Assembly (NCBI GenBank): GCA_022925895.1
Contig: JAKSYS010000765.1
Coordinates: forward strand, 1 to 26,880
Source of the DNA: Fragilaria crotonensis
Lineage: Eukaryota; Bacillariophyta; Fragilariophyceae; Fragilariales; Fragilariaceae
Direction: 5' to 3'
Length of the DNA: 26,880 bases
Both the position numbers and the translations under genes were made by a program. The first letter of the stretch is position 1, and every line of letters begins with the position of its first letter. Below are positions 1-25,309 of this stretch, in pieces. A model generated the notes under the pieces. That model searched no databases. It worked only from the letters and a program-made list of their open reading frames with translations, and was not told the origin of the DNA.

Positions 1-4
1 TCTA

Positions 5-28
5 CATCAGAAGGTGCGTATTGTTTAG
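5..28 (+). repeat. Left terminal inverted repeat
   Basis: It begins CATCAGAAGGTGCG and ends TTGTTTAG. It pairs with 9912-9935 in inverted orientation with two mismatches (G/A and A/T). Only four bases of the window lie outside it, so the left flank and any target-site duplication cannot be checked. Confidence 0.75.
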
Positions 29-393
29 TTTTTTTAGATGTTTAGTTCCAAACATTAAATTATGACCGATCAGTACCTTTTCACTATTTTTGGTTATGAA
101 TAAAACAAATATTGCGCAACAGCTTCATAAAGTTGATTTGCAATTTATTTGTCTCAAACAAAACAAGCACAAAACATATTTGTTGAGATTAAAACGTTTA
201 TGTTACGTACTCAGCAATTACATCAATTTATAAGAGTCGGTTCATAATCATATTATGTTTAATTCAAACTATAATTGGTACATCACCGTCATCCATATAT
301 GTTCTGAACGCAACATCCCTTGCACATAGATACCGTGTATTACTATCTTATCGATTCTTTACTTTCTTTTGTCGTTCAGCAAAACAGTCGTTC
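29..393. other. Noncoding AT-rich left end of the transposon
   Basis: This AT-rich stretch lies between the left inverted repeat and the stop codon of ORF-A. No convincing gene is visible on either strand. It presumably carries the 3' end signals of ORF-A and subterminal sequence for transposase binding, but I see no clear repeated subterminal motif. Confidence 0.5.
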
Positions 394-2264
394 TCAATCA
401 TCTAAATCCCATGCCGCCTCAACAAAGGTTGCAGTCATTGCTGCTGGCACTGCAGTGTCATTGTCTTGTTCTCCTCCTCGTGCATCTCGTCCATGCACTA
501 GACCTGCCTGACTCATGCAAAACGCCAGTAATTGCTTCTCCATTGCCTCTGCTTGGGTGCATTGCCTGTCTTCCTGCACAAGGCTGTAAAGTTCATTGAA
601 TCGTGCGATTCCTCATGACTCCACCCACCGTATTTGCAGTGCCCACTTTTTGTTCGTGTGTATGCTCCTCGCTGTCTAGGTTTCGCTTTCTTCTTTCGTT
701 GTCCTTGCTCTGAATCAGAATCTTCGGCCTCATCAGCAACAGGAGGCATGGATTTCCACTTATCAATATAATTTTCAAACATTAGTAACGCAAATGCCTC
801 GTCACTTTTGTGACAATTCTGCCACGACCACCGGGCTCTCTTGCTTCCGAAATCAACTGCCTTGTCTTGTGCTTTCCCCAATACCTCCTTCCGCACACGC
901 ATTCCAAGTATGTTCCAAAAACCAATAGAAAGCTTGCAACTCGCGTTCCGTTGTGGCTCTTCTCAGCTTACAGAGCTCGTCCATTGTGAACAATTCCTCT
1001 CCAGTCAATTTAAACTTGGCGATGGTTTCTCGAACAATCTTTCCACCCGATTGCTCACAAGAACTTCGTTTGGTGTTCAAGGCTTCATTAAACACGCTCT
1101 CGTATAGCATCTGAAATGACCACGCTGCTGTTCCGGCACATTCTCATGATCCATCACCAACCTGATTGCCTGTTGAAAACTCGCATCACTGTTTATAAAC
1201 TTGATCTTCCTGAAGATATCGGATTTGACAAATACTCGTACACGGTCAGTGACATGTTTTTGCCGATTTTTAATTGACTGCGATCGCGACATCCCGCGTA
1301 TGTGGAGCGTTTCACCATCAAGTCCCAGAGTTGATGCGGCAGCACTTGTTGGTGCTTTGGCAACAACCGCAACCGTTGGGATTTTACTGGCTGTATGACC
1401 CGTAGTATACTCGTTGTCCCTACGCCCCTTGGCCTTTCGCTCCTCGTCGCTTGAAGTTGACAAATCCTCCTGATCACAATCCACCACTGCTTCTTCATTT
1501 TCATTGTCCACAAGAATGTCATCGTCATCATCTGATGATGAATGGTCAGCAGTATGGTAGCTAGTTTCATATTCCTCGTCATCATCAACATCGTCCCTAT
1601 TGACATAGCGTGGTGGATCTGGTGAATGATTAGCAGCGGAGTTTTGCTCTTCTTCTTCCTCTTCCTTTACACGTGGTTTTGGATTATGTTTCGTACCCAC
1701 TGTACGTACCAAAACAATTTCTGCCACCGATGATTTATCGTCATCCGATGTTTGCTCTTCCTCTTCTTCAGGTGGTGCCGGGTTACGCCTTGTCACCACC
1801 CTACGTGCCACCGTCTTCTTCACAAGTTTTGCCACTTTTGCTGCGCCCTTACTCGATTTGTTGGTAGTATTCGTGCTTACCTGCGGGTTCTTGTTCTTCC
1901 TCTTCTTGTCGTCGGTATTAAGTGAATCAGCAGCAGCGGTTCGCTCATCAATTGGAGCCGCAGCAGTGGTTCCCTCATCATTCTGGTTGGTACTAGTACT
2001 TACAACATTCTTCTTACTTTTTTCATTCGTCTTGTTCGTACCTTTTTCATTCGTCTTGTTCTTTGGATTCTGGTTCAGTTGCCTCCTTGCAGTCTTCTGG
2101 AACTCCTCCTCAATCGCCGCCACTCTTGTCGCCTTCGCTTCTTTTTTACGGGTGCGAGGGGACTTGCGACGAGGAGGAATCATCATCTCCTCCGGTGGAC
2201 CCTCGTCTTCCGAAGCTGTCTCCTCCGGTGGACCGTTGTCTTTCGTAGCTGGCAATGGACCCAT
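394..2264 (-). CDS. Transposon ORF-A, unknown function, broken by three frameshifts
   Basis: The protein would be about 620 residues, starting MGPLPATKDNG at 2264 (the more upstream open codon is TTG, not ATG). The first two thirds are low complexity: Lys/Arg-rich segments alternating with acidic runs (EEEEE, SSDDDDD), as in disordered nuclear proteins. The last third looks folded: FINSDASFQQA, then LYESVFNEALNTKRSSCEQ, then FENYIDKWK and a final YGGWSHEG-IARFNEL segment. I recall similar C-terminal segments in uncharacterised diatom transposon-associated proteins but cannot name a domain. The reading frame changes near 1115, 905 and 610. Each change is repaired by one extra base in a short homopolymer (T3, A2 and G2 on the coding strand). 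It lies inside the same terminal repeats as the transposase, so a role in transposition or target recognition is plausible but unproven. Confidence 0.6.
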
Positions 2265-2770
2265 GATGGATGTACACAAGAAGGAGAGTGGGAAGTGGTA
2301 GTCTTATCAAACTATTAAACTATTGATGAACAGCAAATTCTATGCGATATGTTGCAAGGCTACTATTGCGTGCTTAGTATGTTTTTGCCTTGTTTGAATG
2401 AAGTCGTGCATTGTTGAACAATCTTGTGAACATATCTTTTTGAAATCGCATATATTGACCCTTGTATAGTGATTATGTAATTAATCCACCTTAAACTTCA
2501 ATCTGTATTGTAATATAGTTTGTTTATTGTCAGTTGATGTTTCATAATGTTTCGCGTGACAAGTTACTTCGACTAATTTGGGTACTAATCATACTATTCA
2601 AGTAACATGTGTTTTGGCATTGTTTCTGTAAATATGGTGCGTCCGTTACATTTTATATCATATTAATCATTATAATGTTACATACGTTCTTCCATACGCC
2701 ACAAATTTTTTCGCGATACAAAATAATATCACATTAGTACATATTAAATTTTTCTATCTACAATACTTTG

Positions 2771-2793
2771 GTATACTACTCTGCGTAGTATAC
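2771..2793. repeat. Perfect hairpin, 9-bp arms
   Basis: The arms are GTATACTAC and GTAGTATAC, separated by the five bases TCTGC. The same GTATACTAC word occurs just outside the right terminal repeat, at 9942-9950. Confidence 0.8.
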
Positions 2794-2804
2794 ATCTGCA
2801 TTGT

Positions 2805-2835
2805 TGTTTATCACATATCGGTCATGTGATAAACA
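2805..2835. repeat. Perfect hairpin, 12-bp arms
   Basis: The arms are TGTTTATCACAT and ATGTGATAAACA with a 7-base loop (ATCGGTC). It lies 11 bp downstream of the other hairpin. It is not followed by a T-run as a bacterial terminator would be, and this is a eukaryotic context, so a protein-binding or folding role is more likely. Confidence 0.8.
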
Positions 2836-3205
2836 CACTCATTTTTTACGGCGTAGCTATTTGGTATGCACCGACCATGTGCTCGCCACCCTTGCCGTGT
2901 GTATTGAGAGTACTTAGAGTGATTTCTGTGCTCCTGAACTTTTTGGGTCAAGTCACATGGTATACATTACCTATAAAATGTATGCATTAAAAAAATGTAC
3001 TTAGAGTAAAGTACTCAGAGTAATTTTTAAGTCTTCAGTATGTGTCGTACACGCTGTACTACGTCGTTGCCATTCGCAAGTGTATGGCTTTCTATCACTC
3101 ACAGTTTGTACACAACCTTTCAAATTGTGTTCTTTGAAGCACTTTGCAAGAAGTAGCTTATCACTGTCGGATCGTTCTCTTGTGTTGTTGTCGCATCCTT
3201 TCCTC

Positions 3206-3319
3206 CTGCCATACAGCGGAGAGTGGAGGTTGTTTCATCCATCACGCGCTCGTTGCACTGCCATACAGCAGTGAGAGGTTCTGAACAAGACATTTTTTCC
3301 TTTTCCTGCCATACAGCGG
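3206..3319 (+). repeat. Three direct repeats CTGCCATACAGC(G/A)G before the oxygenase-like gene
   Basis: Copies lie at 3206-3219, 3258-3271 and 3306-3319, spaced 52 and 48 bp. The 12-base core is identical in all three, and the last copy ends 13 bp before the ATG at 3333. The position suggests a leader or promoter iteron. Sequence around the copies is less similar (GAGAGTGGAGG, TGAGAGG, GAAGAGG), so they may be remnants of a longer ~50-bp tandem repeat. Confidence 0.75.
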
Positions 3320-3332
3320 GAAGAGGAATACC

Positions 3333-3852
3333 ATGTCGTCCAATCGACGTGATAGTGATCTGATTGCGAAGTCGAAGAGAACATCGCCTTGCCAGGCATC
3401 AGTTTTGAGCATGGGATCATCGCCGCGGCTCTCGAACGACGAACAAGACGCCGCTGGAGATGGGGATACTTCGGTTCCAGAGGGACGTAGTCCACGTGAA
3501 TATCTGCCGTCCCAAAATCAGGCGATGGCACTCTTGTCTAGGGCTCTGATCCCATCAAAGCGAGAGGCATTTACTTTGCGCTTTCAGCAGAGTGTGACGA
3601 AGGAAGACAATCGGATTCTTGGTGAGCCCACAATATGCAACACTCCCACCAGATGGATTGCTGATGCTTTTGGATGCGACGAGCCTTTCCGTCTCCGTGA
3701 GATGGGTGACATGTTCCTAGTCATGGAACTATGTCTGATTATCTCGAAGAATTTTACGTCATGGACGTCATTCTTAACCGGCACCTTCGCCCCAAAAGGA
3801 AAACCAGCAAGGAGTTTTCCCGAATGGGAAGTCTGACAAGGATGACAACAAC

Positions 3853-3911
<59 letters not shown>

Positions 3912-5720
3912 CATGAACGATGTCACTGACGATCCATATGGAGGCGACGACAATGATTGCTTGTTTGCGGGTAAGGGCGGGGATAAGAATAATAGTAAAC
4001 TTCCCGTTGATCCGGACAAAGTTGTAACGGTCTGGTGTTACAAACCTGAGGACCTCAACGATGCATTCGATTACAAGTTCAGGACAATGATTCTGTTTAT
4101 GCCTCAGTGTGGCGTGTTTTACTGTGCACGGGAGCGCCGCAAAGGTGATGCGGGGTTGCAAAGTCACTCATTCCTCTCGACATGAGCTGGCTGCGCATGA
4201 AGAGAACAGTGACGCCGCTATCCAGCAGTGGTGTTACAGGAGTTGCCGAAGTCACGTACACATTTGGCAAGGATGGCTACGTGAAAGGTTTTCGGATACC
4301 CGATGGTCTGCAAAGTACTATCGCGACTTCAACCGTGTGTCGGCTTGGAGGATTTCACTCCACAAAACAATTGCACGACGACAGAATCGCATAATCTATA
4401 GGGCAGTACAGTGTCATGACAGTGATGGTCCCATGCTGCCACCGGACATTTTCAACGGCCAGGATATTGGCTGTTGGCCGCAAGGTGTTTTGAAGGCTGA
4501 GTATAACCGCCGTCTGGCGAGGTCCAACAGTGCGAGGATGAATGGCCGCCACTATGCCATGGGTTGCCACCACTTTAGGCTCCTGAACAGTGTTGGATCA
4601 TCGATCCAGCACTCGATCACTACGTGGATGTTTGGATTGATGTTGACACTGTGGGTCATTGTGCTGATCGGCAGTCGGTGGTTATGATCAGGAACCTGAT
4701 GGTCGTTGATGGCGAAGCCGACCGACAATCTGCTATGTATCGTGACGAATGGGACCACCACACGCACCTACTTGGGGCATTGAACCACATCACATTCCAC
4801 AACACTGTGTTGAACCGTCGACTGGGAAAGGGTGGGAGTGTGAGGTCTAAAGGTGGTGATGTTGGCACAATGCACGCCATTGGTACTGGCTTTGACTTTA
4901 ATGGTGCGATGCGTCCCTATGCTTCGAATCTGATGGTTCCCGAGCGCCTTCTGCGAAATATGGTCCTTTGTTTGGCACGATGTGGGGGAAGTTTTCTTCC
5001 CTCAGGTGCTGGCTGTGATGAGGGACACGGAATCCGATACTGGTCTCCAGCCTATCTCACCAATGGAAGGTGACCCCCATAAAAAACGTAGCGCAGGATT
5101 TACTATTGACATGAGTGTCAACCTTGGTAATTCGTCGCACTTCGACGTGCACGACGCTTCACAAGGCTACAGTGTTTGGACGGAAGAGATTCCCGGCTGT
5201 GGTGCCAACTGGTATTTTGTTCTGCCGAACGTCCACGGCAAACGGGCACCCCGGCGGGGGGCACATGGAGAGCAATTGGAGGGGAAACCTTTCGCTGGCC
5301 TGGCTATTAAACTTGGACATGGTGTGGCAATCAGTTGGGATGGTCGTGTAATCAGACACTGTACGTCGATCTCCCAGCCTGACGGACTCAGCGGTGGAAA
5401 AGTTGGTTTCGATCGCAAGAAGTTTGGTAACAAGCTGTATGGAACGTTCACCGCCGCGAAGGAAAAGGTAGTGAAGGCAGGGGAGAGCGCAGTGTCAGGC
5501 AAGCAACAAGTTGGGTGTTGTTGATTCTTGCGAGAAAGAAGTTGGCGATCATCAGAATGGAGACAGTAGCGTTCGTGGTGGCCATGACGAGGATGGTGCC
5601 GACAATGCGCATGAGCAGCATGATCCACAAGCGCATGCACCAGAGGCCAAGGAGGCGGGGCCCTTGTCACAACAAGAGAACATTGATAACTACAGGATTC
5701 CAAAGAAGAGGCGTACATGA
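3333..5720 (+). CDS. Transposon-borne protein with 2OG-Fe(II) dioxygenase-like domain, broken by frameshifts
   Basis: The protein would be about 795 residues. It starts MSSNRRDSD at 3333 and has a Ser-rich N-terminus. An Asp run encoded by 19 GAT codons (3853-3909) precedes a region rich in aromatic and basic residues. The best domain is at 4950-5480: NSSHFDVHDASQ gives an HxD pair (His codon 5138, Asp 5144), then NWYFVLPNV, then GVAISWDGRVIRHCTS with a distal His (5357). HxD plus a distal His about 70 residues on, set in beta strands, is the metal triad of the 2OG-Fe(II) (cupin-fold) dioxygenases, and the layout recalls the TET/JBP group. No 2OG-binding Arg/Lys is certain. The C-terminus (5511-5720) is polar, ends IPKKRRT and looks like a nuclear localisation signal. 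The frame changes near 3815, 4120-4180, 4610-4680, 4960 and 5515. An AATAAA lies near 5778. A different double-stranded beta-helix protein is the main alternative. Confidence 0.55.
3853..3909 (+). repeat. (GAT)19 microsatellite
   Basis: Nineteen uninterrupted GAT triplets are followed by GAC. In the frame continuing into DMNDVTDD they encode poly-Asp. The neighbouring frame gives a meaningless poly-Met ORF. Confidence 0.95.
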
Positions 5721-5804
5721 CGAAGTCCGCCACTTACTACTACAGGATGATCGCAGGCTTCGAAATGTCATTCATGAATAAATGCTTGTCTATTGTTGGA
5801 TTCT

Positions 5805-8800
5805 TTAGTACCTCCTACGCTTCTTCTTGTTCGCGTAAGGTTGCACCACTACCCCATCAGAATCTTCTTTGTTGTGGACGCTGTCATATTCATCATTGGC
5901 ACCATCCTCCTCCTCGTTGTCGCCATCACCTTCGTCATCAACATCACCTTCTTTGTCATCAACATCATCTTCGTCGTCATCAACATCATCTTCGTCGTCA
6001 ACATCATCTTCATCATCAACATCATCTTCGTCGTCACCATCATCTTTGTCATCAACATCATCTTCATCATCAACATCATCTTCGTTGTCAACATCATCTT
6101 CGTCGTCAACATCCTCTTCATCATCAACATTGTCTTCATCGTCAACCTCTTCCTCCTCGTAGTCACTTTCTAACGAAGGTGAATCTCGCGATTCATGACA
6201 CTTGTTGATCATCGAGTCCCATGACGTTACCCATTCGTCTTTCCTCCGAAAAGGAAAAGGTAATACTCCTCCGCTCCGACATCGCGAATGCCTATGGTTG
6301 GTGCGACAAGGTTGTTGACGTTAACCATGAACAATGTTGGCTTTGATTTCGCATCCTTGCGATTTAGTTTGTAACGACCTATCATTGTGTTGAGAATTCC
6401 CTCACTTCCTCGTCGATTGCATCAAAGGAGTGTATGAGAGCGTACACTCCTGCTTCTTTTATTGATGGCTGTCCCGATTCTTGAAGGGCAATCCGTGCAC
6501 CTCGGGGCAAGTGACGAAGGTCAACAAAGGTGTGGATAAATGCCGGTAGTGGATATTGGAAGCCGTGCCACTCAACCATTGCATGGTCATTCCAAGGTTT
6601 GCCATCGTATATGCTTGGATGTGCACGATACTTATGCCCATTGACGCAAATGAACTCTGTGAAGCATGGAAGCTTCCCATCGGTCAAAAAGGGCAGCAAA
6701 CAATGTTGCCCAAGGAAATGCATTGCACTGCGAGACAAGGAGTCGCCACCAGGATTGTCTGTGGGATACGTCCGATTCCAGCGGAAGCTAGGGCTTGGAT
6801 CCCCAACCCTCCGTGAGATTGTGAATTGTCGGCCAGACATTGTTGGAAGTGCATCGTCTTCACCGGACTTTCCAGCAGCAGTCGCAAAAGAACTACCGCC
6901 CTTGTGAATGATATCCTGCTGCATGTCTTGCCATGCGGAGGCAATAGCAAGGTTTTCGATGTACCTGTGTGCCGCCTGCCTTGTGAATGTCTTCGCACGT
7001 TTTTGGGTGTTCCTTGCCGTGATCTTTGATAGAGGTATGTGTGCTGATTCGGCATAGGCACTATTAACGTTCTCAGGAACCCCATGATCGAGGATGTCTT
7101 CGCTGAGGTGTAGGACCAAGTGGGTCTTGATAGTGTTATTGCCCATTCCACTCGCTCTCGGTGAGACACTTGCCATTTGACGCATCAGCCACTGCACTGC
7201 ACAATGTGATTTTGTGACTTGCGCTTTTGAAATGGTGGATTGCTTCATCCATTGGTGCCACTGGAGGAGGGATGATACAACGAGTATCCAATCCGCAAGA
7301 TGTGCCTCGTTGCTCAGCCTTTGTAGTTCTGGGTCCTTAACTTTCAACTTCTTTGGGTCCTTGACTTTCGACTTGTTCTTCGACTTCTTTGCACCGTTTT
7401 TGGGTGGCAGGGGCGGTGTGAATATTTGTCTGAATCTGGTTGTGTGCATTGCAAACAACTTCACCAACAGGCATCCTGTTATCTCGTGCCCCATCAAATT
7501 GGTGCCGGAAGAAAATCCTTTGGGAAGTTCATTCTTGGGAGATCGCGGTCGCTGTGTCGTGACAATCGCCCACCAATGGAAGCACACAGTCGATCATAAT
7601 ATTTCAGGGACAAGGAGTCGCGACCGCCTGCTTGAGCTGCGAACGCTTCGAGACAGTATTTAAACCAGCCCAAGGAAATGAGGTGCAACATCTCACCAGG
7701 ACACGCCCCAAATATTCCCCTCTTATTATGGAGACCAAAACGAACCTTGTCAAAGCCGTTGACCAGATAGTTCTGCGACATTGCTTTCAGCCCTTCCAAA
7801 TCACCCGATCTGACCAGCTTGTTGATAGCAGCTGGATTCCTGTGGCGATACTTCGCCTTTGAGTATCCAGATTCAAGGGTGGGACATTCGCACACGCGAC
7901 AAAGTTGCTTAACGGAGCTGAAGCGAGCTGTATAATGCCCACATAGACGATCATGGCCCTCAGTATCGCCAATTATGAATGGGATGTAAGGATGCAGTAC
8001 AATGGGATAAACCTTCCCATCGTAATGTAACATCCAATTGAATCCCTTGCGTTGCAAGTCAAGGAAGCCGGATTCTTCGAGGATGAACTTGATCTGCATG
8101 TGCATCTCGTTAAGGATGTAAGTGGACCAGCTCACATTGGGAATAGACTTCAGTGCAACTTGACCAATAACAGTGCCGTCAGGAACATCGGCAGCCATGG
8201 TGGGAGCAAACCCAGACTTTCTACCTTTTTTGCTTGTCGGCTTGTGTGCTGGAAATTGGCATATATAGCCAAGGATTCGCATTGCGCTATGCTGCGATCG
8301 AACACCATGCTTGAGAAGGCCATGAGATATAGTCATGGGTTCCATCTGCATCCGACCATATGTGTCTACTTGTGTCTTGTCCATTGCTACGACTGTTGGT
8401 AAAATCATGTCGACACCCTTTTTCTTGACAAGTTCTTTGTACGTCCTGCGGTAACAACGACCTGTATTGATGTCTCCAATGTCACCAGACTTTGAGGGTT
8501 CAACAAAAGGATCCTTATGTTCATGAAACAAATAGTTTTCGTCGCGATTCAGAAGAGGGCACGAGAGGAGAGATGCGAAGACTTGAGAGGCATCAAAATA
8601 CACCATGGATACGATCCTCTTTGAATAAGGCAGATAGAGCTGCTTCTCCTTTGGTATTAATCCCTTCATGTTGTACCTGCAATACAACTTTTGTACAACC
8701 TTCTCTCGGGATGGTTGGCAGTCCACCTGGAATATATGTCCATTACTGTTGGCTTGAGCTGACCAATTAAGAATACGAGTAAATGCATTGAGAGGTGCAT

Positions 8801-9402
8801 TTAGCTCCTTGAGAAGGTGTAGCAATTCAATATGGACCTTTTCCTCTCGAGAGAATCGGTCGAGGCCAAGTGGATTTGAACGCAACTCAAGCAGTTCCTC
8901 ATACAGTTTCAGCACACATCGATCGGGTGCCCTTCTCCGTCAACGTGAGGATCTTCTCCTCATTGTTCCAAGGAAGTGCATCATCTAATGATGGGAATCC
9001 ATCCTCGCGATCATCTTCAATCTTACCATCCTCGAAACAACGCTCTTTGCTAGTCCTGGCTATACCTGATGATGCGTCCACTTTTGACGATTGCACGTTC
9101 GTCTTTCGAGTCAATGCTGGACCATTTGCCGGCTTCCTTGTCGAAGAAAGATTCCCAGAAAGTGGATGAGTCACAGATGACAAATCATTTGATGAAAGCC
9201 GTCCGCTTCTCCTTAGTGGTGAGGATTGTGTTGCCGCATCATTGTTACGAAGAACACTACCAGAAATGAACTCGTGGCATGTTGTGTAGAGCTGCTCGCA
9301 AATGGGACTCTGAGCAATGTGAGTTGAAAGCCTCTTGAACAATCGATGACAACCAGCACATCGCGAAGAAGAGGTAATACCACTAGTTGAGCCCGATGCC
9401 AT
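5805..9402 (-). CDS. Plavaka-like transposase, broken by frameshifts
   Basis: It is about 1,200 residues, starting MASGSTSG at 9402. A Cys/His finger near the N-terminus (CAGC...HIAQSPIC) is the likely DNA-binding part. The RNase H-like core has VVAMDKTQVD (catalytic Asp near 8380), then FIIGDTEGHDRL (second Asp near 7966), a CRVCECP zinc-binding insert, and GACPGEMLHLISLGWFK (candidate third acid, Glu near 7693). This matches Plavaka/KDZ-type transposases, where the last acid precedes an LH-rich segment. Next come THLVLHLSEDILDHG and SAYAESAHIPLSK, then an EEYYLFLF segment, a long Asp/Glu tail and a C-terminal KKKRRRY nuclear signal. Breaks lie near 8938, 7512-7515 (a T4 run on the coding strand where T5 restores the frame), 6395 and 6245. 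The gene converges on the oxygenase-like gene with an 84-bp gap. It should cut and join the element's terminal repeats in the nucleus. As it stands it cannot make a full-length protein. Confidence 0.75.
5925..6165 (-). repeat. Acidic minisatellite-like tract in the transposase C-terminus
   Basis: Degenerate repeats of TCATCAACATCATCTTCG on the plus strand encode a DDVDDED-type repeat on the minus strand, about 80 residues almost entirely Asp, Glu and Val. The plus-strand ORFs here (Ser-rich or His-rich) are only shadows of it. Confidence 0.85.
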
Positions 9403-9911
9403 TTTCAAGAAACAATTTTAGAAACAAGCTGTGAGATTTTGCATGTGCACAAAAAATGCTGTAAAATGAAACAAATGCCTTGAAGATATAAAATAAGAAT
9501 TGCGACGAGTAAAGAAACCACTTGGCAGGAATTCACAATTCTATTTCAATAGCCTCGAGGAAAATGGTAAGAAAACGAAAGATGTTTTCGAAGATGCGGG
9601 AAAATGTTGAGGCTTTGAATCGACAATTGAGTAATCGAAAATCAAACAATTTTATGAAAGAACTCAATGTTGTTAAGAAATCATCCACTGTTGTTTTGAT
9701 CATCATAATTGTGATATACTGAACAAAATTTTCTTCTATTTGTTATCATTACAACACGAATGCTATACATCCAATAGATGTTCGTTAAGACAAACATTAA
9801 AGTGTCGGAGACTTACAAAGACGCCGTATTAATGTATGAAACCGCCATAAAATAATACATATCAAACAAATATTGTGAATATGCAACAAATTTCTCAATA
9901 AAAATGACAAC
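9403..9911. other. AT-rich right end of the transposon, including the transposase promoter
   Basis: The transposase reads away from this segment, so its promoter and 5' leader should lie here. The DNA is AT-rich with many ACAAA words. The only ORF with a plausible protein is the small one at 9564-9722, listed separately. Confidence 0.5.
9564..9722 (+). CDS. Small basic ORF with hydrophobic C-terminus (doubtful)
   Basis: Fifty-two residues starting MVRKRKMFSK, with a helical basic and amphipathic first half and a final TVVLIIIIVIY that could be a membrane tail. It sits divergently just upstream of the transposase, inside the terminal repeats. No family is recognised. The DNA is AT-rich, so a chance ORF is quite possible. 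Confidence 0.2.
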   Translation: MVRKRKMFSKMRENVEALNRQLSNRKSNNFMKELNVVKKSSTVVLIIIIVIY

Positions 9912-9935
9912 CTAAACAAAACGTACCTTCTGATG
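9912..9935 (-). repeat. Right terminal inverted repeat
   Basis: It reads CTAAACAAAACG to CCTTCTGATG on the plus strand, the reverse complement of 5-28 with two mismatches. The next bases outward are ATCACCG. The similarity stops at both edges, as expected for the tips of an element. Confidence 0.75.
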
Positions 9936-10257
9936 ATCACCGTATACTACCCTCCGCCACATTTCTCTTATCGATACTGCTAGTACACCATATGTTCAGT
10001 TGTCAATGTGAATGCCTTCCTGACCAAATCAAATCGCTCCAAGATTACCTCGTACATATCCCATCATGACGTTTCTCATCCGGCACTTCTATGCTTCTTC
10101 AGCCGGTTGTGGACTTGTTCTTGCAAACTTGAAGAAACTGATATATTGGGGTTGTACTCGATAGGAATGACATGTTGGGTCCTTGATTCCCAGCGTTGCA
10201 ACTGAGAAAATAAGGAGACGTTGATCCACGAAGTGACATTGCTAATGTACCAGGAAA
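9936..10257. other. Intergenic, flank of the transposon
   Basis: Nothing convincing is seen apart from a GTATACTAC word at 9942-9950, shared with the hairpin at 2771. It separates the right transposon end from the next gene. Confidence 0.4.
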
Positions 10258-10879
10258 ATGTGCGACAGACTGTTGCAGCAATTTGAAGTGAACGGTGCTT
10301 TACCCATGACGTTTGCCAATGTTCAGGCAATGCTAACTACCATGCAGGAACAGCTCGTACGGCAACTCAGGGACAGTGCTGGTGTCAAACAACTTGCAGC
10401 GCCAGCAGTCACACCTAGTGCTACTGGGCGAGCAGCTCAGTGGCTCACCTGGTACCATCCAGGACGAGGCAAGTTTCAAGGTCCCCGACTTCAACTTCCC
10501 TCAGATGCTGACAATTAAACCGTGCTGGGATTTATACCTCCATGGCAACAACCTCCTGAGGATCAGACCCTACCGACTGCTGGACAACAACGACATGAGA
10601 ACACATGCAGACAAATGCCGGTTGTCAAACATGAAGGCAGTCTGCAAATTCATCATTCAACACACCGATGCCAATGTTCTTGATGCAAATGGAAGTGATG
10701 TCAATGTGCTCGATTCAAACCCTGAGGAGACCGACATTTATTTTGCTGGTGCCTGGCCACTGGCCGTAGCCAAACTAACGAACAACAACAACCGCAGCGA
10801 AAAGATTAGGGGGGATTTGGTTATGACTACAGTGTACAACCTGATCCAAAAGTATAAACGAGGAGCAAGGGAAGCATAA
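10258..10879 (+). CDS. Transposon-associated protein of unknown function, one frameshift
   Basis: The protein would be about 207 residues, starting MCDRLLQQFEVNG. The N-terminal part is helical with many Gln (TTMQEQLVRQL). After a frame change near 10435 comes the characteristic part: FNFPQMLTIKPCWDLYLHG, then LLRIRPYRLLD, then a helix with MKAVCKFI and a final MTTVYNLIQKYKRG. From memory, small domains with a W-x-x-x-HG...IRPYR pattern recur in diatom and oomycete repetitive-element proteins, sometimes next to transposases. I cannot give a domain name. It lies outside the repeats of the large element, so it may belong to a second, degraded element. Confidence 0.45.
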
Positions 10880-12060
10880 AAATGCCTTCAGTTTTGGGAG
10901 TAGTACCACCTGCGTTAACACAGTAAAAGGTAGTAAAGGTAATCTCCACTCGTTTGCATCCTCAAGCATTGCGTGTCGGATGCTTGACACAAAGTAAGTA
11001 TCCATGCATCAGCAAGCCAGCAACCAAAGGTGACGAGGAGGCTCCCATGAACAGTTGAAATTCTACGAATAGTTACATAGCTATTTGTGCATCGGCAAAT
11101 GCAAACAAGAGATGCCGTCAGAAACATGTTGGAATCATCTTTCAACAATAAAGCTGCGACAGTCCACCCAGCCAGCAGGAAAGACGCAGCAAATAGAACA
11201 GCTGTTAGCATCGCTCCCCAAGAAATCACCACCCACCAAAGCACACGACCAACTATGCTCGGGCATCAGCGTGGATGGAAAAGTTTACCCTCTTCATTCA
11301 GCGAGGCGAGTGGATTTGTCCTGGCTGCAAAAACTGCTCCGAGGTAAGATGCTGCGCCAAAACCCAATTCGAGCCATGCCAAACAGTTGTTTATCACCCA
11401 TTGCTTGTTGAATTCGTCTTGTTTGAAGCAATTGCAATAGCATTCAAAACATTGAGGAGAACGATGACTCCTACGATTTGTGGTAAAGGTGACAAAACTG
11501 CGGTCGTTGTTGCGTTGCTTCCACAAAACGTTCACCGAGACAATCCGGATCACTTGATTTAGTAAGGTGGCCAGTCCTTCTAGACTAGAAGGCTAGATTT
11601 ATCCACGGTGATGAAGGGACTTCGTAGAATCAAAATTATGCCCTTCATGCAAGCATGAATGGAGTATGGAATGCGGAGATATATCCAGAAAACAGGTCGT
11701 TTCTGATACCGTCATCCAGTTCACGCAACCGCCGAAGACAATGTTGGAATTTCCAATATAGGTTCTGGACATAATCCTCAACAAACTTGCATTTCAATTA
11801 CACTTGAAAAGCAAATGGCGCCAAATTGTACATGTTCGAAGTATCTTGTTCTCCACAGGTGTCATACCGAAGAAGGAAAAATGTCACTGCTGCCACATCT
11901 AGTAGTAGTACAGTAGATTACTTTGTAATACTGTGATAAATGTCATAAAATAAGCATAAACAATTAGCAAATTTAACGATGGGTTGAAACATAATGCGAG
12001 CAACGTACCTTGTTGTTTATTGTATCATGTGATACTGTGAATTAATTTCGCTGCTACTTG
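10880..12060. other. About 1.2 kb with no supported gene
   Basis: Short overlapping ORFs occur in all frames, none with recognisable motifs. A CPGCKNCSEVRCC string near 11330 is Cys-rich but isolated and unsupported. The segment may be the remains of the element that carried 10258-10879. Confidence 0.4.
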
Positions 12061-12399
12061 TGAAAATTTGCACTCTTCGCTCCACAAACAAGACACCACG
12101 CATCACCATCGAGCACACTGACACATACTATACGTTGCAACGCACGTAGTAGAAAAGACGGCAGACCGCAGGATACGGCGAAGTTGAGGAGAGGTCTCAC
12201 ATCGGAAGGTGAATGTCTGGCAAAAGATGAATTGCTTTTATTAGAACATATGTGGTGGGATTTCGTGGTCAGTGGCGAGGATATGGATACTCGCTTCGAT
12301 GCCGATTCACTGCCTATATTCAAATACACGTACAAATCGCGTGGACTACTGGATGTTCCCCTACTGTATTGGTGTTCGGGGTTGTCAGATTCAATCTGA
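12061..12399 (+). CDS. Possible exon or small protein, unknown (doubtful)
   Basis: A plus-strand frame is open up to the stop at 12397-12399. Its end reads RRGLTSEGECLAKDELLLLEH, MWWDFVVSGEDMDTRFDADSL and IFKYTYKSRGLLDVP in short pieces that look protein-like. There is no ATG at a convincing place. The opposite strand has a 147-codon ORF over the same DNA that looks less natural. It could be a 5' exon of the large downstream gene or a remnant. Confidence 0.2.
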
Positions 12400-12677
12400 C
12401 AAAACCCGTGGGTTATAAGATCTTCAAAGAGGGGGGTGGGGTACTTGAACCTCATACTACGGTAGGTAGTAGCTCGTACTGAAAAATGACAGTGCAAGTA
12501 CTAGGAGTGACACGGTGACATGACACGCAGTTGCTGCTGTTGACGAGCAACCAGATGCGGAACGGAATTGAATCTTCATCCGGTGATCCACAAAACCACT
12601 AACGAGACCACCAGGATGATGCTCGACTATTGTGTGTCTTAGGATCTGAGCTTTCGAAACAACTGCGATTGTAGGCG

Positions 12678-16909: not shown

Positions 16910-17454
16910 TGTTTGCTTCGCTTAAATCAACCCTCTTGCTTCGCTCCACATTCTTCTACGAGAAGTGTTTGATTTCCTAACTCTACAACTACAGCTATTG
17001 TAGTTTAAGAATTGATCGGCGTAGCGCAAATACTACAAGCCAGTGCTTACAGATTGCGATGGCGTGCTAAACCGGCAAACTACCGGTAGAAGTTTTCTGT
17101 TTGCCCATCTGTATGCTATACCGGTAGGATATGTCAGCATGCGAGTACTACCGGTAGTACCAGGTGGTAATCATACCGAAGTTGTGGTACAACTACTTGT
17201 ACCAGGTATGGAGGACGAATTGTCTACTGTTGTTTGTTTGTTTGTCTGCGTAGATAAAATTACCAACACACTTGGACCAGCACACACATCGACGAACACA
17301 ACAAAACGCATTCCGAGAAGAATACTACAGTATCAGATGGATCGTAGCAGACGAGACCATTGCCCCCGTTTCATGCGGGTTGCCAGCAGCCGTCATGGAG
17401 CCAGAGAAAGACATTAGCTCCTGATTGTTTCCGACCCTAATCCGTGTTTTGCAA
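16910..17454. promoter_or_regulatory. Intergenic region upstream of XPF with palindrome cluster
   Basis: The 545 bp contain three TACCGGTA palindromes (17081, 17119, 17149) and GTACCAGGT words. The plus-strand ORF at 17043-17417 begins at a non-ATG codon, is interrupted by these repeats and resembles no protein. The region most likely holds the 3' end of the upstream gene and the XPF promoter. Confidence 0.45.
17081..17160. repeat. Three TACCGGTA palindromes, one within a 16-bp perfect palindrome
   Basis: Copies lie at 17081-17088, 17119-17126 and 17149-17156. The third sits inside GTACTACCGGTAGTAC (17145-17160), a perfect 16-bp palindrome. They end about 295 bp before the XPF start codon, so a dimeric transcription factor site is possible. 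Confidence 0.7.
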
Positions 17455-20449
17455 ATGTCGACTTCGAATAGAAATGATACAAGGAACGACGATGACGAGT
17501 CCAGCACTCAACATCCACTGGTTCCAACCGGCCTCCTGCCCGCGTACTTGGCGGAAGCCTTCGGAGAAATCTATGAAGAAGACGGCCTCTTGGTTTTGGG
17601 TAAGGGATTGGGGCTGTTGCCTCTGTTAGCTGCCTTTGTCCGTTTCTACGGTGACGTTGAAGAAGGATATAGTGCAGATTCCAACGCAAAGAAGCCTCCG
17701 CTTGTCTTTGTTTTGGGTCTCAAGGACAATGAACGCAACGCGCTGGTATCGATACTGGAAACATGGGGAACACCTCCACATCTTCTTCCGACGATGGTGA
17801 CGAACGAGAGTGGACAGGGAAAAGATCGAGCCGGTAGGTTTCTTCGAGGCTTTTGTAATCAGGTTTACTTATATTTCCCTGGCGAGAACTCACTGATTTC
17901 TCTCAGTTCTTTACCAGCAAGGTGGAATTTTTGTATAACGACGCGTATTCTTATTGTAGACCTTTGACTAGCATCGCCAACCCCAGCGACATTGAGGAAT
18001 GCTGGTTGCGCATGCCGAGAATGTGACAGAACAATCCACCGAGGCATTCATTCTTAGAATCTTTCAGACGCAAAAGCAATTCGCCTCGAAGGATGGAACT
18101 GGTAAGGGATTCATCAGCTTTTCGGAATCACCTGAGGTGCTTCTTTCGGGTTTTGCCAAGATTGACAAGGTGATGAAGGCTCTGTATGTGCGGCGACTAT
18201 ATTTGTACCCACGATTTCACTCAACCATCGCTGATGAACTTGAGCGACGAGCCCCTCATGTGGATGAACTCCATCAACAATTGACGCCAAAGATGAAGGA
18301 GATCCAAATGCAATAGCTGCTGCAGTGCAAACATGTATTCGAGAGCTTAAGGCGTCAACAACCTTGCTGGAGTGGAAGGACGACGAGCTGTCTGTTGAGA
18401 ACTGTGTCACCCAAGATTTTGATCGGGCTATTTCACGGCAGTTGGAAGGTGACTGGCACCGTCTCAAACCTCAGACAAAGCAACTAGTTCAAGACCTCCG
18501 CACACCCGAACTCTTTTTCTGTCTCTGATTCATTATGATTGCATTGCCTTTTGGAAACTGATTAACTCTATCAAGACGATTTCCGCTGCATCGCGGCAGC
18601 CAAGCATGTGGTTGTTTACTCCTGCTGCCGATATGCTTTTTCGAAAAGCCAAAGAGCGCTTGTACAATGTTGTAAGGCCAAAGCCGACACAGAATGTGCC
18701 TGACCCCGTTGCCAAACTTGAACCTATCTTGGAAGAGAATCCCAAATGGCGGCTTTTGCGACAGATTGTCAAGGAAATTCATGACGAAACCGCGAAATCT
18801 CCAAATACAACGGCTTCTGTAAATGTCCTCATCATGGTCAAAGATGAGACATCAGTGGAAGTGATACGCAGCTATCTTGTGGATGGCAAAGAAAAGACTA
18901 TGACAGGTCGCTGGCTACGATATCTAGAAGGTCACAACGATCGGTCCAGATCAATTACCAAAAACGCCGGTGGCTCCTCTGCCATCACTGAAGAAAGTCG
19001 ACTGCTACTCGAAGATGAACAACGTGCTCGACAAGCTCTCTATGGTCGAAACTCATCGAGGGCCTTGACAGGATCGAAACGCAAGAACTTAAACCAAGTC
19101 CCTGACTACATGCGCAAGCATCGCAAGGTTGCTGCTGAAAAGAGTCGAGGCATAGCTACGAGACAGACCGAAGACCTAGAACGCAGGGCTGTACTCGATG
19201 AAGCGTTGGAGGTCACAGACCACGATTTAGGTTCCACGTTGCCGCGCTTATTAGAAAGGAACGAGGAGGACAACGATGACAACGATGAATCCAAGTGGTT
19301 CGACGTTCACATGGCAAACGAAATGCGACTGTTCATCAGAAGTTATTCATCGATTGATGGAGATCAAGCAAGTTTATTGCTTCAAGATCTCAACCTCGTT
19401 ATGTCGTCCTCTATGACGCGGATGTCTCTTTCGTTCGAGCAGTTGAAATCCACTCCAGTTTGCAACCTGATGATCAGGAACGTATTCGGGTATATTTCAT
19501 GCTGTTCGAAGCCAGTGCAGAAGAAAAGAAATTCCGAAAGGCACTTGAACGAGAGCAGAACGCCTTTGAACGGCTGATTCACCACAAAAAGATAATGGCA
19601 CCCACCTTTAACACATTGTCCGGAACTACTCAAGAGATGCAGCAGGCTATGGAGAGTGGGTGTGTGGCAGGAACGTATGCCGGCGGTTCATTGCCGTTGT
19701 CTGTTGACACTCGCACTGGAAGAGGGAAGGCCAAGGCTGACACTGAGAAACGAGACATTGCTGTTGATGTGCGAGAATTTCGTTCGGCTCTACCCTCCAT
19801 ATTGCACCAAGGAGGCATGCGCCTTGCCCCAGTGACTCTGACCGTCGGCGATTTCGTCCTCAGCAATGTGCATTGTGTCGAAAGGAAATCAATCTCTGAT
19901 CTTTGGGAGCTTTGCATCCGGTCGGCTCTTCACACAAGCCGAGAGCATGTCCAAATGTTACAAGTGCCTCTTGCCTTCTAATCGAATTTGACCCCAGCAA
20001 GTCGTTTTGCTTACAGAACGTTAACGAAATGGGAATCGAAATTCGAACAGACTCGGTTTGCTCAAAGATGGTTCTACTGACGTCGCACTTTTCAATTACG
20101 GCTCCTCTGGTCGCGGAGTCCCCACGAGACTCTGCGGATCTTCAAGGATTTGAAGCAGAACCACGATGAGGTAGATGTTGACAAGGCTGTGGAAATGGGC
20201 AGAAACGAATCAGTTGAAGCTTTCCTGAAGGAAGCGGACGAAGACGACGACGAAATCAATGAAGTTGCACGTGACATGCTGTTGCGGTTACCGGGAGTCA
20301 ACGTCCACAACGCAAGGAAGATCATGCAAGGGTGTGATTCGATTGCAGAATTAGTAGACTTGCCACGCGACGAACTGAAACGCATCGCTGGACCTGTTAC
20401 CGGGCAAAAGCTCTTCACGTTCTTTCGCCAAAAGATGGGAGCGACGTAA
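17455..20449 (+). CDS. XPF: DNA repair endonuclease XPF/ERCC4, broken by frameshifts
   Basis: It is about 975 residues, close to the family's usual 900-1,000, starting MSTSNRNDT at 17455. XPF pairs with ERCC1 and cuts the 5' side of damaged bubbles in nucleotide excision repair, and also acts on crosslinks. The inactive helicase-like part starts LLPAYLAEAFGEIY. YQQGGIF and TTRILIVDL align with the family, then AFILRIF and LYLYPRFH. The nuclease domain has FRSALPSILHQGG, TVGDFVLSN and the catalytic VERKSISDL (near 19877). The C-terminal double HhH region has MLLRLPGVNVHNARKI and IAELVDLPRDEL. One GT-AG intron (17834-17906) is supported by the restored YQQGG junction. The frame breaks near 17933, 17964, 17998, 18307, 18500, 19395, 19903, 19970 and 20091. 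Several are repaired by one base in a short run (CTTTG, GGAATG, CCAAATG, AACCTC). It is the last plus-strand gene before a convergent PSII gene. Confidence 0.92.
17834..17906 (+). other. XPF intron, 73 bp
   Basis: It begins GTAGGTTTC and ends TTTCTCTCAG. Removing it joins GCC G to TT CTT TAC and restores the conserved YQQGGIF motif in frame. A pyrimidine-rich tract precedes the acceptor. Confidence 0.85.
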
Positions 20450-22504: not shown

Positions 22505-23889
22505 TCAATCGATGCGACACGATCGAAGTCGCTGTTCAATCTTCTGGCGGACATTCTCAGGCACGCTTTCTTGATTGTCGACATCAAACTTTTTCAGTGC
22601 TCTGCATCCCATCAGGACCAAGTTGTCGCATCTCGAAGGCTTTGTCAGATCCCATCGAACAAGCTCCAAAACAGTCCCAAGCTTATCTCCGGTGACACCG
22701 CATCGGTTTCTCCAGACCTCGAGGAGATATTCAACGTCGTCTCCGTCTATCTGAATAGGCCCGACCCAAATTCCATTGACAATTCGGCCTTCCATGTCAT
22801 TCTCATCGTCGCCATGCTCGGTTGCTGGGACGACACCTTCTACTGATTCCCTTTCTTCAGCTCGCGCCGCTTCGCGTGTTGAAAAATACGGTTCCGAACA
22901 TTGCGACCAACTCGTTCTCCAGTGACAGGGGCGAAAGGCTTATTTCTAGCTCACAAAGTGCCGTGGCGGCAAGAGTCTGTCCCATCACTGCAGGCATGGT
23001 GCCCAACACAGGTATGATACGGATTCTCATGCCGTCGACAGCACCAAATTGATGAACGCCTTGCTCCTTTGCTCATCCGTAAAATCCGCTAGCTTGACAA
23101 CGGTCTTTTCGAACTATACACCACCGTCAGCTTCTCCATATCATCCATGTATGACGTGTCTCCGTGTAGCAGACGTTTGATGGATTGGCGAAGTTTGCTG
23201 GCCAGAGGGTCGCGACTGGCAGTCCGAAGGTCGGAAATGTGGAGACGAGGACATCAGACTTCCCACCCGCACCCATGCAGGAAATGACTCGTACATTGAG
23301 CTTCATGCATTGTGCCAGCAAGGCCGCCTTGGTGGGAATGTCGTCAATGGCATCAATTACCAAATCCCAATCGTGACCATCGAGCAGCTGGGGTCCAGTT
23401 TCTGCGGTATACATTTGCACGATGTCTTCAAGTACCAAGTATTCTGGATCAGACATAGACGCTCGCAGAATCGCTTCATGCAGCTTGCCTTGGGGGTTCC
23501 TACATCGGCAAGAGTTGCACAAGCATGACGGTTTAATGACGACAGTGAGACTTGATCAAAGTCAATCATTCGCAGGTGACCAACCCCAGATCGCGCCAGC
23601 ATATGGGCCGCATGAGAGCCCACTCCACCGAGACCAACAACGACAATCTTTGCACCTCGAAGTCGTTCCATGCCGTCATCGCCGAAGTACAGCGTGTGTC
23701 GCGACAATTGCTCGTCACGGAGTTCCTGGTATGCTGCTATTTGTATTGTGGCGGCCTTTTTCACTTTCGCTGGACCTATCAGACTGTTTCTTTCGATTCC
23801 ATATTGACAGGACCAGCGCGATGCCGTTGCTCCAGGATAAAACTTGTCAAGGTCGACCGTAACAACACTGCGTTGGCATGTGCACTCAT
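22505..23889 (-). CDS. TCD: tRNA threonylcarbamoyladenosine dehydratase (TcdA/Tcd1-like), broken by frameshifts
   Basis: It is about 460 residues, starting MSAHANAVLLRS at 23889 (the longer frame starts at a non-ATG). The enzyme is an E1-like ATP-dependent dehydratase that turns t6A into cyclic ct6A at position 37 of ANN-decoding tRNAs. Visible are SRHTLYFGDDGMERLRGA, the nucleotide-binding VVVGLGGVGSHAAHML, DFDQVSLSSLNRH, ADVGTPKASCMK, DLVIDAIDDIPTKAALL, VISCMGAGGKSD, then RIIPVLGTMPAV. The C-terminal part (22795-22505: EYLLEVWRNRCGVTGDK, LELVRWDLTKPSRCDNLV) resembles the extra C-terminal region of yeast Tcd1/Tcd2, which bacterial TcdA lacks, so this is the eukaryotic form. Yeast Tcd proteins are mitochondrial outer membrane proteins; the hydrophobic N-terminus here may anchor it. 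Breaks near 23790, 23480, 23248, 23110, 23070, 22930 and 22850 are mostly one missing base. It is divergent from Rab11. Confidence 0.85.
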
Positions 23890-24367
23890 CTTGTTGTTGT
23901 CAATTGTCCGTCGGTTTGTATGGTGTGTGGTGGTCGGAGGTCGGAGGAGTTCCTCTTTGCTGTGTGCAAGAAAGGAAAGACTCAAGTCATTAAGTAACTG
24001 AAGACAAAATATACATACGTGCTACTAGTACAAGTACGCCGTACTCCACCAGTGCCTACGAGTGTCAGCTGGCAACTGGCAACTGCTGTATGTTGAGCAT
24101 GGGCAGAGCATGGGGTGTATCTCTCTTGTGTGCGATGTGTACTTCTACTATATCGTTCACGCCTACTGGGTACTATACCATTACTGCACTAGGTGTTGTG
24201 TGCTGATCGAGTCATTAGTCATGTGACCGGCTCCCAGAAAATCTGCTGGATTGCTATAGCACGTATTTTATGTGCATTTTTCCCACACAGACGAAATAAG
24301 AAACTTCCCGTCGACCACCACTTCATTATTGAATAGATTGCAGCGGCCTTGTCTACTTTCAGTTATC
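23890..24367. promoter_or_regulatory. Divergent promoter region between TCD and RAB11
   Basis: The 478 bp separate the two start codons. GTACAAGTAC at 24029-24038 is the reverse complement of the GTACTTGTAC found at 21670. More GTAC words follow. No gene is seen. Confidence 0.5.
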
Positions 24368-25309
24368 ATGGACAACGAAAGCTACGATGTGAGTGTTTCC
24401 CATTGAAGGTTTCCGGCAGACTGGCAGTGAGCGAACGCTCCGCAATTTCTTGCCCGAAGTTGACTTCCAAGCCCCAACCAGGAATAACTATTGTACGAGC
24501 TATGGGAGGTTCACTGGATGTCTTATGTGCGCCTATTTTTAATAGCAACTGACGAGCTCTGTTTGACGAAATGTACCCCAACGGCAGCATGATATTTGAT
24601 TAACGCGTTGACGAAACCCCTCACATCATTTCTCCCTCCCTCACCTTCAGTTCATCTTTAAAATTGTTCTTCTTGGAGATTCGGGTGTTGGAAAGTCAAA
24701 CTTGGTCTTTCGCTTTACTAAAAACGAGTTCAATAAAGACTCAAAGTCCACCATTGGAGTGGAGTTTGCCACCAAAACGGTGCAGATTGAAGACAACAAG
24801 CTGGTGAAAGCACAGATCTGGGACACTGCCGGGCAGGAACGCTATCGCAGTATCGCATCGTCCTATTACCGCGGTGCTGTAGGTGCATTGTTGGTGTACG
24901 ACGTTACCGATAGAAACTCCTTTAATCATGTTCCGATGTGGCTCAGGAGGTTGAAGAAAATGCTGAAAAGGACTGTTTGATCATGTTGGTTGGGAACAAG
25001 ACAGATCTTAATGATCAGCGCACAGTATTCGTAAGAGACGGGCGGTCTTTTGCAAGAAAGAATGGACTAGCCTTCATTGAAACTTCTGCCCTGGATGCCA
25101 CTGGTGTTGACACTGCCTTTCAACGAATTCTGCAGGAAATCTACAAGACGCAGACGAAAAAGCAACTTAAGAATGTCAACCGGGCGACCGAAGGCCATTC
25201 AGGGGGAACTGGTGATGGTTTCCAGGCCGGGCGCGGACAGGCCATCAGTCTGCACAATCCACCAGAACCGGAACACATGCAACCGCAGAAGAGTGGAGGG
25301 TGCTGCTAA
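24368..25309 (+). CDS. RAB11: Rab11 family small GTPase, one intron, one frameshift
   Basis: Exon 1 is seven codons (MDNESYD, 24368-24388) and exon 2 runs 24651-25309, about 227 residues in all. Rab11 controls recycling-endosome and post-Golgi traffic to the cell surface. All G motifs are present: [10 protein letters not shown] (P-loop), KSTIGVEF (switch I, Rab11-type), [12 protein letters not shown] (switch II), NKTDL, and [14 protein letters not shown], which is close to the Rab11 ETSALDSTNVE box. The C-terminus, KSGGCC, gives a double-Cys geranylgeranylation site. One base is missing near 24943 (MWL to [16 protein letters not shown] would be in frame with one more base). The hypervariable tail before the CC is long and polar. 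It is divergent from TCD. Confidence 0.95.
24389..24650 (+). other. RAB11 intron, 262 bp, phase 0
   Basis: It begins GTGAGTG after the seventh codon and ends CTCACCTTCAG. Splicing joins ...SYD to [12 protein letters not shown], the normal start of a Rab11 G domain. The ORFs inside it are not coding. Confidence 0.9.

Follow-up and report, generated by a model that had tools for sequence, protein, structure and literature searches.

The stretch of DNA analyzed here, hereafter the window, comprises 26,880 nt of Fragilaria crotonensis (contig JAKSYS010000765.1), and its numbering is used throughout. A complete Plavaka DNA transposon of the PlavakaB type, 9.9 kb in length and delimited by copy boundaries, inverted ends, and 2-bp duplications, occupies positions 5 to 9935 (no strand assigned). 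Within it, an oxygenase-like gene runs on the forward strand from an ATG at 3333 to a stop codon ending at 5720; we estimate its product at roughly 750 amino acids, the frame of the window copy being broken and split over several reading frames. Encoded on the opposite strand are a Plavaka transposase gene at 6382–9417, also in several frames (6382–7593, 7494–8939, and 8899–9417), and two more open frames of 149 and 408 amino acids at 513–2303. These last two seem to be part of the element, since related DNA is found near oxygenase-like loci on contigs C529 and C394.

The limits of the transposon were located by flank searches and near-identical copies elsewhere in the genome, with copy matching that starts at window positions 1–5 and ends at 9935–9939. 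Its terminal inverted repeats are CATCAGAAGGTGCGT on the left (5–19, forward strand) and, as the reverse complement, CATCAGAAGGTACGT on the right (9921–9935, reverse strand); the inverted ends follow the pattern CATCAGAAGGT(G/A)CGT, with CATCA...TGATG termini. A 2-bp target duplication was observed in five of the six copies for which both ends were read (TA three times, GA and TG once each). The window copy has no 2-bp duplication; its left flank there is four bases of contig end. The right flank (9936–12424) also occurs, at 95% identity and with the transposon absent, at positions 45532–48106 of contig C158 of the same genome, which fits a putative second haplotype or allele with an empty site. 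The original prediction had placed the gene inside a Plavaka-like element, and this assignment was borne out by the transposase domain, the CATCA...TGATG ends, and the 2-bp duplications together: the middle transposase frame (7497–8939), alone among the three, matched the Pfam model PF18759 above the cut-off (E = 3.9e-8). Excerpts from Kojima (2025; PMC12730594) give fungal PlavakaB elements the same CATCA...TGATG ends with duplications of 2–3 bp, and place every fungal Plavaka family that bears a TET/JBP gene within PlavakaB.

A single window frame of the oxygenase-like gene encodes a conserved C-terminal domain at 4985–5521 (forward strand), which was delimited from the family alignment described below and holds both an HxD motif and a distal His. 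Both residues had been predicted at the positions where we read them: the HxD motif is H-F-D (CAC TTC GAC, 5138–5146) and the distal His is the CAC at 5357–5359, the last codon of the stretch W-D-G-R-V-I-R-H (5336–5359). Between them, at 5153–5155, lies an Asp three residues past the Asp of HxD. The predicted basic, nuclear-signal-like C-terminus is also present, as YRIPKKRRT followed by the stop (5691–5720), and recurs in diverged family members as YRIPKKKRG (L019), YRIPKMIR (L021), and, in changed form, YTVPRRKRLRY (L030). A long GAT repeat at about 3853–3911 codes for a poly-Asp run whose length varies between copies.

Besides the window copy, nine near full-length matches to the gene, 94–100% identical, were found in the genome; two of these, on contigs C511 and C98, fall short of the gene's 3' end. 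Many of the differences between the window and seven of the nine (L002–L008) are short indels, often in single-base runs, a pattern to be expected if the copies are young or the assembly was made from long reads. The stop-free stretch reaches 601 codons in L006 and 581 in L002, where it departs from the register of L006 over a short part. A search of the 62-Mb genome (881 contigs) with a 601-aa protein from one copy returned at least 88 matches, which merge to about 61 loci; the number is approximate, since matches were merged if they lay on the same contig and strand less than 3.5 kb apart. By our count by eye, about 20 diverged loci retain an open frame of at least 600 aa with no stop within the match (for example 724, 747, 817, 771, 754, 751, and 698 aa).

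A family alignment was built from 24 members, 15 of them less than 90% identical to each other, with the lowest pair at 51%. It does not include copies nearly identical to the window gene, the three loci L022, L034, and L036, each of which duplicates an aligned row, loci that were never cut out, or L041, the frame of which stops before the motif. Numbered from the start of the window domain (4985–5521), 28 columns are invariant, including D42, N49, H52, D54, D57, S59, G61, E67, N75, W76, W118, D119, G120, R121, R124, H125, S128, P132, D133, G134, T154, and F155, where invariance refers to the aligned rows and not to the loci left out. Thus the H and D of HxD (H52 and D54), the Asp that follows (D57), and the W, D, G, R, second R, and distal His of the downstream stretch (W118 to H125) are identical in 24 of 24 rows, and the retention of the HxD and distal His residues among copies, on which the prediction had staked itself, holds throughout the alignment. 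Conservation also extends far upstream of the domain (11 rows aligned).

In four hand-picked pairs, dN/dS was 0.26, 0.19, and 0.13 (dS 1.2 in the last), and 0.105 in a fourth pair for which dS was saturated; all four show purifying selection on the gene. Large DNA transposons often carry accessory genes, and one rival reading sees in this one a host gene acquired by accident that does nothing for the transposon. Excerpts on the large DNA transposons of brown algae also describe accessory genes (PMC12477816). Such an origin is nevertheless very improbable here given the low dN/dS, the long open frames of the diverged loci, and a recurrent association with transposases.

That association was quantified over the 61 loci. 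A Plavaka match lies within 8 kb of 28 of them, convergent with the oxygenase-like gene in 27 cases and mostly about 2 kb away; by chance, such a neighbor would be expected at about 2% of loci. One type of MULE transposase lies within 8 kb of 12 loci (10 divergent, one overlapping, one convergent), only one of which also has a Plavaka match, and a second MULE type is near two loci (14 of its 62 matches entered the computed count; the remainder, read by eye, added no pair). For the remaining 20 of 61 loci, two of which are near contig ends, none of the Plavaka or MULE transposase types looked for was present within 8 kb. A tree was built from 23 rows, the window row being omitted in view of its 99% identity to L006. 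On it, the main MULE type is linked to four rows, which formed one branch with full support, and the Plavaka-linked rows fell in at least two places. Adjacency alone falls short of showing that the MULE transposase and the oxygenase-like gene form one element. The 106 Plavaka transposase matches in the genome merge to 83 loci, less than half of them near an oxygenase-like gene; with Plavaka copies both with and without the gene, the genome is a natural comparison set. Among the individual neighbors, MULE transposases adjoin oxygenase-like genes at L047:2361–5315 (E = 6.1e-12) and L050:1916–3562 (E = 7.7e-8). Ulp1-type proteases (Peptidase_C48) were detected at L050:643–1782 (E = 5.8e-8) and L026:27–944 (E = 2e-5), adjoining the oxygenase-like loci L029, which is MULE-linked, and L026, and may belong to the elements of those two loci.

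Database searches returned no named family for the protein. The check proposed with the original prediction, a profile search for TET_JBP or other oxygenases, came back empty: none of the 24 members matched a Tet_JBP or oxygenase model in Pfam, and Tet_JBP had no match in the whole genome. The 13 Pfam families that the members did match were all weak, unrelated, and scattered (best E 0.027), with the TauD-type family absent among them, and NCBIfam and PHROGs yielded only weak, scattered matches to unrelated families (best E 0.012 and 0.13, respectively). Profile searches of the family against the PDB found no match. By sequence, 32 PDB matches were returned, all with their best stretches inside the query's acidic, poly-Asp N-terminal region; these were rejected. 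Profile-profile comparison of the 24 rows with single sequences reached significance for neither TET2 nor the Naegleria TET; AlkB received the top score (probability 21%), which we gave no weight since the alignment does not pair the HxD motifs. No relatives were found in phages, nor in viral contigs (two scans) or prokaryote contigs, the contig scans being by short peptide patterns and possibly omitting records from this or very near genomes. A tblastn search of phages with the Naegleria TET gave weak, partial matches only (best E = 0.5), so no TET profile was built from them.

The missing Tet_JBP match does not exclude a TET/JBP enzyme, for two reasons. On controls, the model (PF12851) recognized a human TET fragment (E = 3.8e-27), but the Naegleria TET itself scored no better than E = 0.046, short of the cut-off. 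Moreover, the PE-type proteins of fungal PlavakaB elements needed structure comparison for their recognition, HHpred having returned E = 1.4, according to excerpts from Kojima (2025; PMC12730594). Our own single-sequence AlphaFold model of the window domain (4985–5521) was uninformative (mean pLDDT 31.5) and was not used in a fold search. The predicted beta-rich frame was only weakly borne out: in a propensity profile over 15 sequences less than 90% identical, strand made up 33% and helix 12%, but the number of strand segments (six) was no higher than in shuffled columns (mean 5.5).

We compared the family more directly with five proteins in an anchored test, in which the HxD and distal His were held fixed and the surrounding residues were scored against the profile of the same 15 sequences, with 5000 shuffles each. 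With both windows summed, TET2 fit at p = 0.0008, TauD at p = 0.027, and the Naegleria TET at p = 0.18; AlkB (p = 0.14) and PHD2 (p = 0.23) were scored on provisional sequences, and AlkB-like sequence around the HxD and distal His is unsupported. After correction for five tests, TET2 was significant and the other four were not. The single windows of TET2 gave p = 0.012 and 0.016 (the latter for the distal-His window) at -8.3 and -6.8 bits, and every anchored score was negative, the best single window being that of TauD at -2.7 bits. Because the absolute scores are all negative, and better only than those of shuffled residues, we take the resemblance to TET2 as weak support and not as a homology match. 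These same scores, a strand pattern no better than shuffled columns, and homology that went undetected at any level leave some weight with a different reading: that the HxD and His form another kind of metal site, such as that of a nuclease or of a protein accessory to transposition, with the TET look due to chance. We consider this doubtful rather than remote. The order and spacing of the invariant HxD and WDGRxxRH stretches match those of the two stretches that bind the metal in known oxygenases, the TET2 fit survives correction for five tests, and a subunit specific to Plavaka transposition would not be expected to adjoin both Plavaka and MULE transposases. An oxygenase of the broad type is likely, and TET-like is the best single resemblance, with neither assignment secure.

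The resemblance to TauD raises the question of the substrate. TauD/TfdA-type 2OG oxygenases have, like the family, an identically spaced WD(N/G)RxxxH stretch, and in the distal-His window TauD, the letters of which were confirmed, fit better than TET2 did (p = 0.002). The gene could encode a beta-helix Fe(II) oxygenase of JmjC-, TauD-, or AlkB-like kind that acts on a histone, another protein, or RNA, perhaps still in the service of the transposon; the assignment to a DNA base depends on a single Asp and a single aromatic position. We judge this unlikely: the summed windows favor TET2 over a TauD fit that fails the five-test correction, and the Asp at +3 is invariant. The family differs from TauD in that there is no likeness around the HxD motif (p = 0.59), the HxD-to-His distance is 154 residues in TauD as against 61 in the family consensus, and no conserved Arg was found after the distal His.

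Residue correspondences with TET2, the Naegleria TET (4lt5), and CMD1, which were drawn by motif alignment without structure, bear on the TET-like reading in both directions. In excerpts on these enzymes, the N4 of 5-methylcytosine (5mC) is held by Asn1387 in TET2, Asp234 in the Naegleria TET, and Asp350 in CMD1, each three residues past the Asp of HxD, where CcTet has Gly331 (PMC7854593, PMC11040006). The family has D57 at this place in all 24 rows, and so resembles TET2 and the Naegleria TET (N or D) and differs from CcTet. TET2, the Naegleria TET, and CcTet also share with the family the HxD motif and an aromatic residue at the place where 5mC stacks; the base is reported to stack on Tyr1902, Phe295, or Phe416 (excerpts of PMC7854593 and PMC11040006), and the aligned residue in the family is F155 in 24 of 24 rows. 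In TET2 and the Naegleria TET, as in the family, the distal His stands twelve residues after a Gly. In contrast, the family differs from the three enzymes in two residues and has no significant sequence similarity to them. The His that reads the N3 of 5mC is replaced by Ala (A157 in 20 of 24 rows), and the Arg past the distal His that binds the C5 carboxylate of 2OG (Arg1896 in TET2 and Arg289 in the Naegleria TET; excerpts of PMC7854593 and PMC11040006) by Asn. A 2OG-binding Arg or Lys had been put forward as a check on the prediction, and the outcome spoke against the literal 2OG label: the aligned position, located by motif only, carries Asn (N149) in 23 of 24 rows and a gap in the last.

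CMD1, the TET homologue of Chlamydomonas, offers a possible parallel. According to excerpts of PMC7854593, it uses ascorbate, its Arg at the place of the 2OG Arg points away from the site and does not hold 2OG, and it has Trp358 eleven residues past the Asp of HxD. Like CMD1, the family has Asp at +3 and, at the spacing of Trp358 (+11), W65 (Trp in 22 of 24 rows, Phe in two), a comparison of residue spacing from published numbering only. Based on the Asn at the place of the 2OG Arg and this Trp, the co-substrate may not be 2OG. A broader scenario would have elements of two unrelated superfamilies, Plavaka and MULE, taking up an unrecognized TET-like branch of Fe(II) enzymes, present in dozens of copies in one genome, with a co-substrate other than 2OG, ascorbate being the obvious candidate, and rewriting cytosine marks to escape silencing; we regard this as distinctly unlikely and offer it as speculation.

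Our preferred reading is that a diatom PlavakaB element carries its own nuclear, Fe(II)-dependent, double-stranded beta-helix oxygenase of TET/JBP-like kind, and that base oxidation by this enzyme counters silencing. We hold it tentatively, with somewhat less than even confidence, and the TET/JBP-type interpretation overall is plausible but not proven. The order of events would be as follows: once the gene is transcribed, the protein would enter the nucleus by way of its basic C-terminus; HxD...H would bind Fe(II); the Asp at +3 would hold a modified base flipped out of the DNA, probably 5-methylcytosine; and oxidation of the methyl group would remove or change the mark on copies of the element, such that the transposase could stay expressed. 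Here we infer the fold, the metal, the co-substrate, the base substrate, and the anti-silencing role. Counted in favor are the Plavaka domain and ends, the 61-locus family, the invariant motif residues, the low dN/dS, the convergent Plavaka neighbors, the anchored TET2 fit, the +3 Asp, F155, the parallel with fungal PlavakaB, and the methyltransferase genes of the host (C5-DNA methyltransferase has 15 matches in the genome). Counted against it are the missing Tet_JBP, oxygenase, and PDB matches, the negative anchored scores, the Naegleria TET at p = 0.18, the better fit of TauD in the distal-His window, the 2OG Arg and N3-reading His that are not conserved, the Plavaka-linked rows in at least two places of the tree, the 20 of 61 loci without a transposase, and the uninformative model. 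Of the oxygenase call itself, what stood is a strongly conserved HxD...H protein in a Plavaka element, in a diatom host with methyltransferase genes; what failed to appear was any Pfam, PDB, or profile match.

Transposon-borne TET/JBP genes in fungi are said to have been first reported by Iyer in 2014. Excerpts from Kojima (2025; PMC12730594) describe such genes carried by fungal PlavakaB elements, and the closest counterpart there is the PE type of Agaricales. Set side by side by description and not by sequence, the fungal and diatom systems share the Plavaka transposase, the CATCA...TGATG ends, the 2-bp duplications, and a protein with an HxD/E...H motif whose sequence similarity to known TETs is very weak at best; in both, relatives of the gene stand beside several kinds of transposon (PMC12730594, excerpts). 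They differ in the motif (HxD in the diatom, HxE in the fungal PE type), in the host, and in the transposons involved, the diatom genes being beside Plavaka and MULE whereas the superfamilies listed in the fungal abstract do not include MULE (PMC12730594, excerpts). In the literature searched, outside Repbase and most subscription journals, transposon-borne TET/JBP genes were reported from fungi and none from diatoms; among the papers listed for diatoms and Plavaka were one on a green alga and one on a fungus; and the accounts of brown algal and Amoebidium transposons, as excerpted, name no such enzyme. In the diatom Phaeodactylum, methylation is reported to be limited to transposons (PMC12344493, excerpts), which makes an anti-methylation role directly testable in diatoms.

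If the enzyme reading is true, anti-methylation enzymes are carried by transposons in fungi as well as in diatoms, two distant eukaryotic branches, and this shared strategy would have arisen by convergence or by transfer. Even with another chemistry, a conserved family that counts about 61 loci in a single genome and has no Pfam match is a new part of transposon biology. The diatom host supposed in the original prediction is supported by matches to silicon transporters (19 in the genome, best E = 4e-193) and by a light-harvesting protein that has FCPI-7 and Lhcr11, which we take to be components of diatom photosystem I, as its best relatives of solved structure. The matches of a second light-harvesting protein at E ≤ 1e-30 are confined to four LHCI chains in a single entry. 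Outside the transposon, the window holds three further genes that by eye appear to belong to the host: an XPF/ERCC4-type nuclease-like gene (17425–20449), an E1-like (ThiF/TcdA) enzyme-like gene (23127–23899), and a Rab GTPase-like gene (24612–25309).
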